Shown: piece by piece, positions 6,835 through 50,422 of the stretch | Position numbering within the stretch: the first letter of the stretch is position 1 | Layout: every line of letters starts with the position of its first letter | Translations under genes and position numbers: made by a program | The notes under the pieces: generated by a model | Database searches by the model: none | What the model was told of the DNA's origin: nothing | The model's input: the letters and a program-made list of their open reading frames with translations, nothing else | Source of the DNA: Pirellula sp. | GTDB lineage: Bacteria > Planctomycetota > Planctomycetia > Pirellulales > Pirellulaceae | Assembly (NCBI GenBank): GCA_021299695.1 | Contig: JAJTEK010000037.1 | Span: 1 to 50,422 of the forward strand | Reading direction: 5' to 3' | Length of the DNA stretch: 50,422 nucleotides

Positions 6835-8127
6835 ATGATGAAAAACCACTGCATTGCTTCGCTGGTACTTCTAGCCATCGCCTCCGGATCGACGCTCGCC
6901 CAAGAAGCAACCTCGGCGAAAACCAAAACGATCCCGGCGACCCGTTCGGAGCTCAAGGAAGTCCTCGGGCAACTCAAAGATCGAGTCCCCAGATTGCCTG
7001 TTCCCGAGACGGTCCCCGGAGCTACCAATCCTGCCAGTTCGAATGTCATCAATGGTCGAGCCCGACGTTTCTACCTACCGGAGTCCTGGCTCCAAGCTGA
7101 GCGTTGGGGAAATGAAGCCGAATCTAAGGTGTCCTATGAGCTCAAGACGCAGTGCTTTTGGGTCGTCTCTCGGGGCAACAACTGCCACTACTGCTTAGGG
7201 CATCAGGAGCACAAGCTCAAACTGGCCGGCCTGAGCGACGATCAGATCGGCGCATTGGATCGCAACTGGGATTCCTTGGACCCTCGAACTCGAAAAGGGG
7301 TTGAACTGGCCAGGAAAATGACGGTCCTGCCATTTGCCCTGAGCGATCGGGACGTGGCTACCTTAAAGTCGGAATACTCCGATGCGGAAATTGTAGAGTT
7401 GGTCTACAGCATCGCGAGGTTTAATTCCATGAACCGATGGACCGATTCGATGGGCTTGCCCCAAGACCCCCAAATGCGAGGTGAGAGCGTCGAGTTCGAC
7501 ACACCGACGTCCACCCAATGGAATCAAGGTGAATCGTTGGTCGTAGCAGGATCCGACATCGTTCGCCCCATGGCTTGGACGTGGCAGGAATGCCAAGAGC
7601 AATTGCAGCATTCCGCGACGCGAAGAGCTCGAGTTCAGTTGGTATCCCAAGATTCTGCGGCGGAAATTCTCCAGATCCCAGTCGATGAAGTCCATGATTG
7701 GCACCGTGCCATAGCCACCCTACCGGCCGCAGGTCCCGAAATGGTCCGAGCTTGGACGGCCATGTTGAGCGATACGGAATTAGCTCCGGAGATCAAAGCC
7801 GCGATATGTTGGACCACGGCGCGACACAATCGAGCCCCGAGCTCTCTGGCGATGGCCAAAGCGTTCGCCGATCGACTCAAGCTCACCGAGCAACAGATCC
7901 AAGCGTGGGACGCCAGCGATGTAGAGAACTCAATGCCTGGATTGGTCCAAGCCATCGAGTTTGCCAAGAAGCTGACTTGCGATCCGACAAAGATCTCCGA
8001 TGCGGACATCGCTCGTTTGCGTGAAGTCTTCAGCGATCGACAAACGGCTCATGCCATCTATACCGCTGCGACAGCCAACGCCATGGACCGCTTCACCGAA
8101 ACACTCGGACTGGCGATTCGCCCATAA
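6835..8127 (+). CDS. Carboxymuconolactone decarboxylase / AhpD-like protein, exported
   Basis: This 430-residue protein starts with a signal peptide (hydrophobic ASLVLLAIASGSTLAQ). It contains two AhpD/CMD-type helical units. The first (about residues 75-215) keeps the redox signature: NCHYCLGHQEHKLKLAG has C117-x2-C120 and a His three residues later, as in alkylhydroperoxidase D-like enzymes. The second unit (about 280-425) has the same helix pattern (ICWTTARHNRAPSSLAMAKAF, then DADIARLREVFSDRQ) but Thr/Ala/His replace the cysteines, so it is probably structural. It follows the DUF1559 gene after 23 bp and may be cotranscribed. A peroxidase-like or thiol-redox role outside the cytoplasm is inferred. 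Confidence 0.82.
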   Translation: MMKNHCIASLVLLAIASGSTLAQEATSAKTKTIPATRSELKEVLGQLKDRVPRLPVPETVPGATNPASSNVINGRARRFYLPESWLQAERWGNEAESKVSYELKTQCFWVVSRGNNCHYCLGHQEHKLKLAGLSDDQIGALDRNWDSLDPRTRKGVELARKMTVLPFALSDRDVATLKSEYSDAEIVELVYSIARFNSMNRWTDSMGLPQDPQMRGESVEFDTPTSTQWNQGESLVVAGSDIVRPMAWTWQECQEQLQHSATRRARVQLVSQDSAAEILQIPVDEVHDWHRAIATLPAAGPEMVRAWTAMLSDTELAPEIKAAICWTTARHNRAPSSLAMAKAFADRLKLTEQQIQAWDASDVENSMPGLVQAIEFAKKLTCDPTKISDADIARLREVFSDRQTAHAIYTAATANAMDRFTETLGLAIRP

Positions 8128-8172
8128 AAAACTACACGCGAACGCGAACACAAAGGCTCAAACGGGAAAGCC

Positions 8173-8448
8173 GGAGGAAGGGAACGCAAAGACGCAAAGT
8201 CGCAAAGTCGCAAAGGAAAACAAAAAACAGAAAAACAAAAAAATTAAACGCAATAAAAAACGAACCAAAACAAAGCAACGCAAAGCAAATTTCCTTAGTA
8301 TTGTTTTCCACCTCCACCCATTTCCCTTTCTCTAACCCCTTCCCCTGTTCTCTAACCCCTTCCCCTGTTTTCTAACCCCTTCCCCTGTTTGATTTCTTCT
8401 CTTCCCTTTGCGTCCTTGCGTCTTTGCGTCTTTGCGTTCCCTTCCTCC
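8173..8448. repeat. Inverted-repeat cassette 1 built of ACGCAAAG octamers
   Basis: The left arm 8173-8216 and right arm 8405-8448 are 44 nt each and match at 41 of 44 positions when one is reverse-complemented. Each arm starts with GGAGGAAGGGA and continues as tandem 8-mers of the type ACGCAAAG. The left half (8217-8300) is A-rich, and the right half (8306-8404) is pyrimidine-rich with a 20-bp tandem repeat. A transcript of either strand could fold into one long hairpin. No gene lies inside. A second cassette with the same plan is at 8926-9099, on the other side of the GxxExxY gene. Confidence 0.88.
8331..8390. repeat. 20-bp tandem repeat, three copies
   Basis: Three head-to-tail copies of TCTAACCCCTTCCCCTGTTT fill 8331-8390 (the first copy ends in C). 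It is almost pure pyrimidine on this strand and sits inside cassette 1. Confidence 0.92.
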
Positions 8449-8510
8449 TGCGTTCCCTGCGTTCCTGTCTTTCTATTGGTAAATGCTTCGATAGCGATAA
8501 GGAGATCGCG

Positions 8511-8891
8511 ATGGGGGAAAACGAAACGAGTAAGTTGATAGTCAGTGCGGCGATAGAGGTGCATCGCACGTTGGGTGGTCCGGGTTTGCTTGAATCGGTA
8601 TACGAGGAGGCATTGGTGTGGGAGTTAAGGCAAGTTGGTTGTCGGGTCGAGCGTCAGGTTCAAACACCGATCCTGTATAAATCGGTCACATTATCGACTC
8701 CGCTTCGAATCGATTTGTTGGTCAACTCCTTGGTCATCGTTGAGTGCAAAGCGGTTTCGATTTATCTTGAGTTATTTGAGATCCAGACCCTGACTTACCT
8801 GCGTCTACGGAACTTGCGACTCGGGTTGGTGATCAATTTTGGGGATAGGCTCGTCAAAGACGGGATTCACCGCGTGGTCAATGGTCTGTAG
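8511..8891 (+). CDS. GxxExxY family protein
   Basis: This is a 126-residue protein of the GxxExxY family (TIGR04256/PF13366, PDDEXK_3 nuclease-like fold). The signature is present as GLLESVYEEAL. The PD-(D/E)xK-like core is visible as IDLLVNSLVIVECKAV (Asp and the ECK pair). The end LRLGLVINFGDRLVKDGIHRVVN is also typical. The ATG at 8511 is supported by AAGGAG 8 nt upstream; the frame extends further upstream but only through repeat sequence. The biochemical role of the family is not established. Here the gene is the only ORF between two inverted-repeat cassettes of octamer repeats, which suggests that gene and repeats form one unit. Confidence 0.9.
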   Translation: MGENETSKLIVSAAIEVHRTLGGPGLLESVYEEALVWELRQVGCRVERQVQTPILYKSVTLSTPLRIDLLVNSLVIVECKAVSIYLELFEIQTLTYLRLRNLRLGLVINFGDRLVKDGIHRVVNGL

Positions 8892-8925
8892 AACGCGTAT
8901 AAGAATAAAACGAGGATCAGAACAA

Positions 8926-9099
8926 AACGCAAAGGCGCAAAGGCGCAAAGACGCAAGGGAAAAACCAAAACCAGAACACATCCCCTTCCTTCTCGATACC
9001 CCTTCCTTCTAAATACCCCTTCCTTCTAAATACCAATCCTTTTTTTTATTTTCTTCTCTTTGCGCCTTTGCGTCTTTGCGCCTTTGCGTTCCCTTCTTC
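8926..9099. repeat. Inverted-repeat cassette 2 built of (A/G)CGCAAAG octamers
   Basis: The left arm starts AACGCAAAGGCGCAAAGG (8926 onward, to about 8964). The right arm (9051-9090), reverse-complemented, starts AACGCAAAGGCGCAAAGA, so the arms match over about 34 nt with few differences. The right arm is extended by CCCTTCTTCC as in cassette 1, and further CTTTGCGTTCC copies reach about 9136. The order is the same as in cassette 1: purine-rich left arm, A-rich linker, pyrimidine tandem repeats, T-rich stretch, right arm. Confidence 0.85.
8982..9032. repeat. 17-bp tandem repeat, three copies
   Basis: Three copies of CCCCTTCCTTCTAAATA (the first copy has CGATA at its end) occupy 8982-9032 inside cassette 2. 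The unit differs from the 20-bp unit of cassette 1 but shares the CCCCTTCC core. Confidence 0.92.
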
Positions 9100-9223
9100 C
9101 TGTCTTCCCGTCTTTGCGTTCCTGTCTTTGCGTTCCCATCTGTTGGCAAGTCGTCATGAACTCTACAATTCGGCGATGCGGCGGGTTTCTGTGCCGTCAA
9201 GATTTCCAACCAACAGCAGGTCC

Positions 9224-10285
9224 ATGCATCCGTTCGAGAAATACCTTCGAACCAACGACAGTTCTTTAATGTCACTTCTGGTACGGGGTGCTCTTTGGGG
9301 AGCTTCGTTCCCTTACCACGCGGCGGTGGTATGCCGCAATCAAGCGTATCAGCGAGGATGGTTCGAGATAGCCAAGGCTGCCGCACCGGTGATTTCGGTG
9401 GGAAATCTCACTGCGGGGGGTACAGGAAAAACGCCCGCTTGTGCTTGGATTGCCAAGTGGATGCGGAGACGAGGGATTCGCGTTGCGATCCTATCGCGAG
9501 GTTACGGAGCGCTTGCAGACGGGCTCAACGACGAGGCCCGGGAACTCGAGTCGCTGTTGCCGGATGTGCCGCACTTGCAAGCCTCCGACCGCGTCGCGAA
9601 CGCTTGTCTTGCCGTCGAGGAGCTCGAGATGCAGGTCTTGCTTTTGGACGACGGATTCCAGCACCGGAGACTTGCGCGAGACCTCGATATCGTTCTACTC
9701 GACGCGACGAACCCCTTTGGTTGGGGTCATTTGCTTCCCCGAGGATTGCTGCGAGAGCCTCTCAAGGGGTTACGTCGAGCCGACTTGGTCATCGTCACTA
9801 GGTGCGACCAAGTCTCCATGCAGGATCTTGCCAATCTCAGGACCAAAGTCCAGAGGGTCAACCCCAAGGCGGCATGGGTTCAGAGCATTCATGCCCCGGT
9901 ACGATGGAAAAATGCTTCAGGGGAATCCCTTGACCTCGGGGCTTTCGAGGGAAAACCTGCGATGTCTCTGTGCGCGATTGGAAACCCAAGAGCCTTCGTC
10001 GATACACTTGTAGACCTACGGATACCGGTTATTGAAAAAGTTAGTTTTCCGGATCATCATCCCTACAGCCCCATGGATGTGCAAGGCATCATCGAACGTG
10101 CCAGCCAGTGCAGCGTGCCCCCGCAAGTCATCCTGTGCACCGGCAAGGATCTTGCGAAACTATCGAGCGACCGAATCGGACCGATTCCACTTTGGGCTCT
10201 CGAAATTGAACTTCAGGTTGTCTCCGGATCCGAGGTGCTCGAGGAGCATCTCGAAAGACTGTGCGAGTTGATCCGAAACCCGTAG
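9224..10285 (+). CDS. lpxK: Tetraacyldisaccharide 4'-kinase LpxK
   Basis: LpxK phosphorylates the 4' position of the tetraacyldisaccharide precursor to give lipid IVA in lipid A synthesis, at the cytoplasmic face of the inner membrane. The 353-residue protein has the family's modified Walker A, SVGNLTAGGTGKTP (about residues 58-71), the SRGYG motif (91-95) and LLLDDGFQHRRLARDLDIVLLDA (about 139-161). It continues with GNPRAFVDTL and SFPDHHPYS near the end. The ATG at 9224 fits the family's N-terminus. The frame continues upstream to about 9068, but only through the CTTTGCG repeat. It is not next to other lpx genes. It shows that this organism makes lipid A. Confidence 0.93.
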   Translation: MHPFEKYLRTNDSSLMSLLVRGALWGASFPYHAAVVCRNQAYQRGWFEIAKAAAPVISVGNLTAGGTGKTPACAWIAKWMRRRGIRVAILSRGYGALADGLNDEARELESLLPDVPHLQASDRVANACLAVEELEMQVLLLDDGFQHRRLARDLDIVLLDATNPFGWGHLLPRGLLREPLKGLRRADLVIVTRCDQVSMQDLANLRTKVQRVNPKAAWVQSIHAPVRWKNASGESLDLGAFEGKPAMSLCAIGNPRAFVDTLVDLRIPVIEKVSFPDHHPYSPMDVQGIIERASQCSVPPQVILCTGKDLAKLSSDRIGPIPLWALEIELQVVSGSEVLEEHLERLCELIRNP

Positions 10286-48790: not shown

Positions 48791-49693
48791 CTACCGGGCA
48801 GATCCTCTCAAAAAGTTGCTCGAGAAGTAGCTGACAACCGCAGGCTCAAGCTCGGCGTTCTCCAACATGTTCTTGCGCATCACATGTCCAAGTGGACCGT
48901 TCTGAGAAAACATCGCGACATTCATGCCACCAGTCGAACCCACACCCATGGTCGCATAGATTGGGTAGAGCTCGGCGAACTCCGAAAACTCCTCATTGAA
49001 CATTTCAGTGAACATCGCGTCGAGTTCCTTCGAGAACTCCTCTGAGAACTCCTCTGAGAAATCCTCTGAGAACTCCTCTGAGAACTCCTCTGAGAACCCC
49101 TCTGAGAACCCCTCTAAAGCAAAAAGCTCGAATCGCTCATCGAGGAACAGAGGGTACTCGTCGTTGATCCCACCCCGCTTGACCCACGAAAAATCAAACT
49201 CAGTATCGTACTCCTCGAAGACCACATCGGTCTCATGAGCAGTCGCTTCGAACTCCTCAAAGCTGGTCGCTTCGAAGCCCTCAAAGGCGGTCGCTGCCAA
49301 GCTCGCATCGCCATTGAGCGCATCGATCACCACCAACACATCGATCGGGTTCAACGAACCGTCGTTGTTGGTATCCAAACTTCCAATCGGCTCTTGCTCT
49401 CCTTCGCCACCCCCAACCGGTCGCGACGTACCGACGCGATTCAAAGCGTCGATCACGCGCAAGGCATCGATGGGACTGACCCGACCATCTCCATCGACAT
49501 CGGCATGAAGTCGGCGAGTCTCGCCGATGGCCGGAGAGATCATGGCGAATGCAGAAACGTCGCCTGTATGGATATCGTCGGCAAAGCACACAAAAGGTAA
49601 ACCGGCCGACAAATCGACCGCACAGAGCTTACGCGATTCCAAAGATTCCAGACCGAGTTTCAAGTTGCTGTTTTTCAAGATTGAGTTTTTCAA
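48791..49693 (-). CDS. Secreted protein with LEPR-XLL-like start, dockerin motifs and EEFS repeats
   Basis: This 300-residue protein opens with a planctomycete-type N-terminal tag (LGLESLESRKLCAVDL, about 13-28, similar to LEPR-XLL). It has two dockerin type I-like calcium loops, each followed by a helix: DVDGDGRVSPIDALRVIDAL (65-84) and DTNNDGSLNPIDVLVVIDAL (107-126). Residues 194-222 are a run of the tetrapeptide EEFS with small changes (EGFS, EDFS), very acidic. The end has ARxx-like short sequence. No enzyme domain is visible. Dockerins bind cohesins in other bacteria; in planctomycetes the partner is unknown. A terminator follows 50 bp after the stop. Confidence 0.85.
   Translation of the reverse strand: MKNSILKNSNLKLGLESLESRKLCAVDLSAGLPFVCFADDIHTGDVSAFAMISPAIGETRRLHADVDGDGRVSPIDALRVIDALNRVGTSRPVGGGEGEQEPIGSLDTNNDGSLNPIDVLVVIDALNGDASLAATAFEGFEATSFEEFEATAHETDVVFEEYDTEFDFSWVKRGGINDEYPLFLDERFELFALEGFSEGFSEEFSEEFSEDFSEEFSEEFSKELDAMFTEMFNEEFSEFAELYPIYATMGVGSTGGMNVAMFSQNGPLGHVMRKNMLENAELEPAVVSYFSSNFLRGSAR
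49032..49115 (-). repeat. 12-bp in-frame tandem repeat, seven copies
   Basis: Seven copies of a 12-bp unit (plus strand GAGAACTCCTCT with single-base changes) encode the EEFS tetrapeptides of the dockerin protein on the minus strand. Copy number may vary between strains without changing the frame. Confidence 0.9.
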
Positions 49694-50079
49694 GGTTGGG
49701 TGCCTCTGTTTCGATCAACGAAATATGCCGCTACGATGCTTCGCCTTCCGGGATCCGTCTCCGGCTAGGTTGCGTTTCTGGCTAGGTTGCGTTTCTGGCT
49801 AGGTTGCGTTTCTGGCCAGGTTGCGGTCCTGGATTTTTTCGGATGGACAAGCCGAGCATCCTTCCCTAGTAGTACGGAAAATCATAGAGGAAAGCTTAAG
49901 GAAAAGAGAGCGAAGTTTGGCAATCGTTCCAAGAATCCCCTATTTTTTGCATAATTACCCCCTCGTCTTGACTTACCGTGCCCCGAGAACCATAACTCCG
50001 TTATCTACCATAACTGCACCGCAAGGATGGGCCAGCAAGGAAACACAGCTAGAACCTCTAGGAGCTAAGGCTTTAGGAA
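49694..50079. other. Intergenic region before ruvB-like gene
   Basis: This 386-bp region separates the divergent dockerin gene and the ruvB-like gene. It contains a 17-bp tandem repeat (49763-49830). No ORF with coding look. The ruvB-like start is preceded by TTAGGAA. Confidence 0.45.
49763..49830. repeat. 17-bp tandem repeat, four copies
   Basis: Three exact copies of GGCTAGGTTGCGTTTCT (49763-49813) and a diverged fourth (49814-49830) lie in the region upstream of the dockerin gene. No secondary structure or ORF is evident. Confidence 0.93.
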
Positions 50080-50422
50080 ATGGTGCGCGAGCGAAAAATT
50101 GGGCCAGGCGACCACGCCAAGGAGCCCCCCGAGGAGGCTGCCAAGGGGCCCGCCAAGGACTCTGGAAAGAAGGCTCGTAAAAGCGACCCGAGCGACATTC
50201 CTTTCGAATCGCAACCGGATCCGAGCGACACGGACCCAGCAGACCAGGACCAAGCCGAGCCAATCACAGCCGAGCCAATCACAGCCGAACCAAACAAAGT
50301 CGACCCCAACAAAGTCGACCCGGGCAAAACACTCGGGCTCGGCGCGACCCGGTCCGAAAACGACTCGGTCCTGCGCCCCAAGCGGATCGACGAGATGATC
50401 GGTCAACGTGAGGTCATGGAAG
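50080..50422 (+). CDS. ruvB: Probable Holliday junction helicase RuvB, 3'-truncated
   Basis: This frame is open to the window edge. The first roughly 90 codons are a low-complexity, charged extension (Lys/Pro/Asp/Glu-rich) with short repeats: AEPIT twice, then NKVDP twice. Then LRPKRIDEMIGQREVME begins, which matches the N-terminus of RuvB (RPxxxxEMIGQ), the AAA+ motor of the RuvABC branch-migration complex. Only this beginning is visible, so the assignment rests on one motif. The ATG at 50080 has TTAGGAA just upstream. The extension is unusual for RuvB, which normally has only about 20 residues before this motif. Confidence 0.62.
   Translation, partial: MVRERKIGPGDHAKEPPEEAAKGPAKDSGKKARKSDPSDIPFESQPDPSDTDPADQDQAEPITAEPITAEPNKVDPNKVDPGKTLGLGATRSENDSVLRPKRIDEMIGQREVME

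Follow-up and report, generated by a model that had tools for sequence, protein, structure and literature searches.

GxxExxY genes of the PD-(D/E)XK superfamily and their inverted arrays of short tandem repeats: a candidate REPIN/RAYT-like system

In a 50,422-nucleotide stretch of Pirellula sp. DNA (assembly GCA_021299695.1, contig JAJTEK010000037.1; hereafter the window, meaning the whole stretch analysed), a small GxxExxY gene (8511-8891, + strand), which encodes a protein of 126 aa with a predicted PD-(D/E)XK fold, is enclosed by two palindromes of octamer repeats (8164-8457 and 8919-9097). Our analysis of this gene and its relatives uncovered inverted-repeat brackets around such genes, a repeat flavour shared by both arms of a locus, agreement between flavour and protein lineage, dispersed arrays lacking the gene and, in the congeneric genome G021, a transposon-like spread with internal-deletion derivatives. 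Taken together, these features suggest that the GxxExxY gene probably constitutes one evolutionary unit with the inverted arms of short repeats around it, a tiny selfish system akin to REPIN/RAYT (repetitive extragenic palindromic, REP, doublets forming hairpins, and REP-associated tyrosine transposases), built on a RecB/Cas4-like PD-(D/E)XK nuclease that would act on its own arm sequence.

The two cassettes at the window locus share the same order of parts, namely octamer arms, an A-rich linker, CCCCTTCC tandem repeats and a T-rich stretch. In cassette 1 the outer left arm F1 (8164-8219, + strand), with tandem octamers ACGCAAAG at 8184-8215 (period 8 in Tandem Repeats Finder, TRF), pairs with the inner inverted arm R1 (8402-8457, - strand; octamers at 8406-8437) as an inverted repeat (I2) of 56 nt at 89%; the A-rich linker (8216-8300, read from the sequence) and 3.8 copies of a 20-bp tandem repeat with CCCCTTCC (8316-8389) follow F1. 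In cassette 2 the inner arm F2 (8919-8962, + strand; octamers at 8928-8956) pairs with the outer right arm R2 (9058-9097, - strand; octamers at 9058-9088) across 3.1 copies of a 17-bp tandem repeat with CCCCTTCC (8982-9034). R2 pairs less well with F1 (I1, 86 nt, 77%), and additional degenerate TTTGCGTTCC units continue beyond it (9098-9141, - strand; TRF 9082-9141, period 14). Linker and CCCCTTCC repeats carry no strand; the latter come from the tandem-repeat listing, and the inner arms from the inverted- and tandem-repeat listings, joined for R1 by arm-match scoring. The best 44-nt arm match in cassette 1 is 41/44 (8173 with 8405), and that in cassette 2 is 29/32 (8927 with 9058). Scored as an inverted repeat, the 400 nt on either side of the gene reach 43.5, whereas 500 dinucleotide shuffles do not exceed 15.5; the individual cassettes score 41 (shuffle maximum 14) and 26.5 (shuffle maximum 13.5), respectively. 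A sequence-only reading of this DNA had described a GxxExxY gene between two cassettes of the same order, with 41/44 matching arms in the first, and the coordinates, part order and shuffle scores bear out both statements. Rfam gave five microRNA-family matches in palindrome 2, every one of them under the gathering score.

Comparable brackets are found around GxxExxY genes in many other genomes. Such genes are present in 47 of the 60 genomes searched (the window's own and relatives), and a scan of one genome for each of 84,980 species shows them to be spread over many phyla. The 143 loci analysed comprise 60 fetched from relatives' genomes, the best 80 of at least 579 relatives from the species scan and three from the window's own genome; removal of loci with short flanks or short profile matches left 132 for the inverted-repeat test. 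They are partly non-independent, several being orthologues within the genus, and L087 and L105 represent a single place, the latter being excluded from the tree and distance test. With a bracket defined as an inverted-repeat score of at least 16, 86 of the 132 loci have one around the gene, as do 16 of 547 neighbouring open reading frames (ORFs) and 5 of 510 randomly chosen places. Tandem C[A/G]CN[A/G]AN units, counted as an array when the two 350-nt flanks hold at least 4 units in total, occur in 100 of 133 loci versus 27 of 703 random control places in the same loci, the pattern being one that allows many flavours but was derived from these loci. Most of the GxxExxY genes examined thus have such repeats. 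Among the matches listed, the six that stand nearest to the window protein (64-70% identical; Chloroflexi, Acidobacteria and one Planctomycete) all have window-flavour octamers beside the gene. Inverted arms on both sides are recognisable by eye in L092, L094 (with a perfect 43-nt inverted repeat), L095 and L096; L092, L094 and L096 also pass the automatic test, L091 and L093, with arms on one side only, fail it, and L095 lies outside it owing to a profile match that is too short. A gene-less octamer palindrome about 400 bp downstream of the L091 gene lies inside an ORF, presumably Uma2-like, and by eye is seemingly read through in frame.

The repeat units seen include CGCAAAG, CGCAGAG, CGCGGAG, CACAGAG, CACGAAG, CACGGAT, CACGAAA and CACTAAT, with a period of 8, 9 or 10. 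This flavour differs between loci and agrees in both arms of a locus: across the 86 loci with at least two units on both sides, the distance between upstream and downstream arm flavour is 1.26 within a locus versus 4.87 on re-pairing (minimum 4.15 of 5000). Flavour also tracks the protein, with a Mantel r of 0.57 that none of 2000 permutations reached. On a tree of 99 proteins, built from few columns and leaving 44 of its 96 inner branches poorly defined, the last unit base changes twice versus at least 13 times in 300 shuffles, the period 17 times (at least 31 in shuffles), position 5 18 times (at least 23) and position 2 20 times (at least 25). When only paralogues within a genome were shuffled (12 genomes and 30 loci, some orthologous between genomes), the fractions reaching the observed values were 0.008 for the last base, 0.010 for the period and 0.030 for position 5, which rules out host composition as their cause. 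Physical linkage of arms and gene explains part of the flavour agreement, but freely drifting non-coding DNA should have lost regular, matched arrays at the 40-50% protein identity concerned.

The window's own 5.49-Mb genome contains three GxxExxY genes, each with a different repeat flavour, the window protein being 41-46% identical to its paralogues. CGCAAAGNCGCAAAG occurs 60 times in this genome, with none for the reversed control pattern; nine occurrences fall within 1 kb of the window gene (expected 0.026), and the remaining 51 form 27 clusters elsewhere, so that most arrays of the CGCAAAG flavour are not beside a GxxExxY gene. The second gene, L032 (C144), is set in CACAGAG octamers (CACAGAGNCACAGAG; 39 matches genome-wide, six of them within 1 kb, control 0), and the third, L031 (C110), adjoins CGCGAAG-type units. 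Inverted doublets account for two of the 27 dispersed clusters and for several of 20 stretches from G010 and G018. At the level of genomes, the octamer array of the window type is present in 29 of 47 with GxxExxY versus 1 of 13 without (own genome included; Fisher p 0.001, kinship not corrected). The proposed tie between the octamer cassettes and this gene is thus upheld as an enrichment, both here and across the loci described above, but the arrays are scattered and not private to the gene.

The most direct evidence for mobility comes from G021, which contains 32 GxxExxY matches, mostly fragments, with 19 of 21 fragment loci matching by BLAST the element around the C159 gene (L085). The common G021 ends, TAAGCACCTGTACATAAGT... 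and ...ACTTATGCATAGGTGCTTA, are inverted at 17 of 19 positions. A 31-base end pattern, searched with up to three mismatches, was found at 22 places in G021, whereas its reversed control found none, nor did the pattern occur in seven further genomes of the genus; two of the 22 places share one flank, and hence the distinct sites may be 21. Thirteen places carry both ends, and in nine no right end was recognised. One copy of 556 bp contains a complete GxxExxY frame and no other gene, while 12 of the 13 two-ended copies are 138-415 bp long, colinear with it and internally deleted. The retained segments overlap by 1-19 nt at the deletion junctions, by at least 6 in most cases, indicative of microhomology, and an identical junction recurs in five loci on different contigs (L315, L320, L324, L326 and L332). 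With shared terminal inverted repeats and internal-deletion derivatives of a larger copy, the G021 copies resemble a family of miniature inverted-repeat transposable elements (MITEs); they do not qualify as an insertion sequence with a DDE transposase, the single gene matching only PDDEXK_3. An outer TA is frequent among the copies but not universal, and no empty site was found on reading the flanks. Contigs totalling 753,143 bases, about 12% of G021 and mostly picked for the hits they contain, showed 17 places and no longer element with these ends. L090 (G024) and L076 (G006) have the same arm type without the G021 ends, but with degenerate partial copies beside the gene.

The window site was also compared across the genus. 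The downstream neighbour lpxK is present in 23 of 27 genomes (own included), and its upstream DNA was read in eight, two of which are cut by contig ends. In G018 the F-R-gene-F-R arrangement recurs (89% over 5.5 kb), and G010 has it at a contig edge, with a gene 95.5% identical; the gene-bearing allele common to both indicates that it was inherited at this site. In G014 the site consists of AhpD, a single gene-less palindrome and lpxK, and in G001 and G013 neither the AhpD gene nor the block is present in the 1.4 kb upstream of lpxK. The comparison with a relative lacking the block, as sought by the sequence-only reading, thus led to the gene-less single palindrome of G014. Another site, L035, occurs in both G010 and G018, the species differing in their number of 52-bp units (2, 3 and 3, counted by eye); in G014 it is shorter and linked to an Rpn-family gene. 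That octamer palindromes had inserted afresh within the genus was considered and rejected, the followed site L035 being common to G010 and G018. Mobility is seen solely in G021 and not at the window locus, which appears to be a resident with doubled arms (F1-R1-gene-F2-R2). The earlier suggestion that gene and repeats form one mobile or self-maintaining unit, or that the protein recognises the repeat, is favoured by the enrichment and by the G021 spread; it does not extend to movement at this site, and the pointers to recognition are indirect.

The window protein matches TIGR04256 (GxxExxY) with 126.1 bits (cut-off 35) and PF13366 (PDDEXK_3) with 115.9 bits (cut-off 22). Residues D68, E78, K80 and Q92 are invariant in 42 aligned sequences, and the conserved D, ExK and Q are those that we take to correspond to the RecB/Cas4 motifs. 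Its structure model is RecB/Cas4-like, the nearest solved fold being 4ic1; the structural matches include 4ic1, lambda exonuclease and Hjc, none with a Foldseek E at or below 0.001. The predicted core fold with conserved D and ExK supports membership in the PD-(D/E)XK superfamily, in agreement with the earlier description of a PD-(D/E)xK-like core without a settled function; in the excerpts consulted, literature naming GxxExxY gives none. Titles and abstract openings yielded nothing on the GxxExxY family, and the equally partial literature record nothing on PDDEXK_3 and no report of the octamer strings, the other flavours matching only work that by title is unrelated. Cas4 is marked by a four-cysteine iron-sulphur site, which the window protein, with two cysteines, cannot form; it thus does not qualify as a Cas4. 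A low-scoring GxxExxY subfamily (about 60-75 bits) occurs in longer frames (about 230-350 aa; e.g. G014:C30 and G001:C143) and may be fused to another domain. Spread by phages or plasmids was not supported, there being five relatives in viral contigs (tandem units in one of four checked) and five among 72,556 plasmid records, which suggests a mainly chromosomal family; nor was a defence role, the sole PADLOC match being weak (E 0.016, 10.5 bits), with none in PHROGs up to 0.1.

Under the favoured reading of gene and arms as one selfish unit, the protein would recognise the repeat, binding the tandem units as arrays of sites, and the nuclease would nick or cut at or near the element ends, possibly on an extruded palindrome. 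The unit could then be copied or moved via break repair rather than by DDE chemistry, either as transposition completed by host repair or as array-to-array conversion, with gene-less palindromes being non-autonomous derivatives that the nuclease serves in trans. Like a RAYT with its REPINs, the gene would in most hosts be passed on vertically as a resident that has a flavour of its own, with occasional bursts such as that in G021. A stronger version, which we regard as tentative and on balance doubtful, is that GxxExxY represents a novel class of minimal autonomous mobile elements of about 550 bp, in which a single gene for a PD-(D/E)XK nuclease of 126-146 aa would alone recognise subterminal lineage-specific repeat arrays and drive its own movement and that of gene-less derivatives.

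Several observations weigh against the unit reading. Clear amplification is confined to one genome, and there the right end of the 556-bp copy reads GGTGCTGTTAG, without the outer TA, suggesting that this copy may not be the active parent; reading of the G021 flanks proved no target-site duplication, and the family could owe its movement to another transposase. An extra gene-containing piece was found in only 1 of 134 loci with the nearest 200 nt masked, a mask that left the partial copies beside L076 and L090 uncounted. No array by our definition is present in 33 of 133 loci, and no bracket at score 16 in 46 of 132. Elsewhere in the window's genome, 25 of the 27 CGCAAAG clusters keep to a single orientation and two are palindromic; a second repeat (GGATCTCCC/CGCAGAGATC, of GGATCTCCCGCAGAGATCC type) lies no more than 60 nt from the array in 11 of these 25, against an expectation of about 0.01 per cluster judged from the rest of the same loci. 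The palindrome that was set against G010 and G018 has long been common to them and is not a fresh insertion. Furthermore, within genomes the base at unit position 2 does not follow the protein (fraction 0.158), and, given the linkage of arms and gene, co-inheritance alone could yield some of the agreement between flavour and clade.

The rival that comes closest to the unit reading, possible though in our judgement rather less probable, is a homing-like gene conversion, in which the nuclease cuts arrays, and repair from other arrays homogenises the arms and shifts the gene between arrays without true transposition. It would readily account for perfect arms that include odd bases (L094), for the presence or absence of the gene within a persisting palindrome (the G014 site) and for array unit numbers that vary between species, as at L035; but the G021 copies, with common ends and unrelated flanks, look like transposition. 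That spread could alternatively be the work of an unrelated transposase on an ordinary MITE, with GxxExxY a passenger and the arms serving another purpose. The G021 ends TAAGCACC...GGTGCTTA do lie outside the arms, often with an outer TA like that of TA-targeting transposons but lacking it at the right end of the 556-bp copy, and are missing from the seven other genomes, including G024 and G006, where L090 and L076 have arms of the same type. On the other hand, none of the 13 two-ended copies exceeds 556 bp, leaving no space for a further gene, no longer element turned up in the 753,143 bases covered, and the matched arms in other phyla would go unexplained, all of which make this alternative unlikely.

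That the arms are operators or transcript hairpins, through which a host nuclease gene would regulate itself or have its mRNA stabilised without any mobility, is suggested by their frequent position near start and stop codons and by the lack of recent movement at most loci examined. However, it sits poorly with dozens of same-flavour arrays far from the gene, the gene-less allele at the window's site in G014, the spread of deletion derivatives in G021 and downstream arms that match the upstream ones, and we consider it improbable. Finally, arrays are scattered in these genomes, as chance or mutational low-complexity repeats might be, but this explanation is refuted by the enrichments and controls (brackets, arrays, own-genome shuffles and other gene families) and can for practical purposes be dismissed.

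The other gene families provide further points of comparison. Rpn/Transposase_31 proteins (TIGR01784) have a PD-(D/E)XK fold and a proposed role in recombination; as the true partner of the repeats they were rejected, with a bracket in 1 of 20 loci and unit arrays in 3 of 20 (20 of 30 fetched being usable). Octamer arrays on one side of Rpn-family genes were observed within the genus at L003, L030, L249, L257 and L239. Genes of the four-helix-bundle family TIGR02436 were likewise rejected as part of the same system, being bracketed in 16 of 26 loci (30 fetched) with unit arrays in none of the 26. Their loci (L276-L305) show inverted repeats of mostly period-7 units (GTTGAGG, TTTCAGC, GGTTAGC and AATTGAG types), i.e. 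the same architecture around an unrelated protein, and may represent a second protein family of the same design; the portion of the literature consulted held nothing linking a four-helix bundle, an inverted repeat and a mobile element.

As to the surroundings of the window locus, the sequence-only reading had placed the block between an AhpD-like gene and lpxK. The latter (9224-10285, + strand), which provides context only, stands as described, but the upstream ORF (6835-8127, + strand) is related to AhpD only through NCBIfam matches that all fall below the curated cut-offs, with no Pfam match. Several tandem repeats of period 12-34 lie close to the window ends (49032-50321 and 1-69).

The bracketed repeats offer a first lead on what the widespread GxxExxY protein does, the repeat code that tracks it being a direct candidate for its substrate, and they suggest an origin for many of the tandem CRC-type repeats in these genomes. 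If the unit reading is true, a nuclease can take the place of a tyrosine transposase in a partnership of the REPIN kind.

Among known systems, MITEs have common inverted ends and are internal-deletion derivatives of a parent transposon. The G021 copies resemble them in these respects and in occupying different sites, whereas, unlike a MITE parent, the only two-ended copy with a complete gene encodes no known transposase. The protein shares with RecB/Cas4 nucleases the predicted fold and the conserved D, ExK and Q residues, but differs from Cas4 in its 126 aa, two cysteines and neighbours, which are AhpD-related and lpxK rather than CRISPR (clustered regularly interspaced short palindromic repeats) genes. 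TIRtrons, described in the part of the source consulted as RAYT-like genes between terminal inverted repeats, some of them dispersed repeats (PMC3733652), similarly enclose a small enzyme gene in long inverted repeats; the enzyme class of GxxExxY is different, and a tandem-unit grammar is not described for TIRtrons in that part. The REPIN/RAYT systems, for which the consulted part of PMC3116915 reports lateral exchange between distant bacteria, species-level inheritance and a proposed co-evolution, a likeness to the GxxExxY system, also combine a gene that has its own repeat flavour alongside with dispersed repeats of that flavour. They differ in having REP hairpins rather than arrays of tandem 8-10-bp units, in that the dispersed copies in the window's genome are mostly not inverted doublets, and above all in the enzyme, which here is a predicted PD-(D/E)XK nuclease, matching only PDDEXK_3 and GxxExxY, and not a tyrosine (HUH) transposase. 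By analogy, then, the parallel with REPIN/RAYT appears close, with the enzyme setting the GxxExxY system outside that class.
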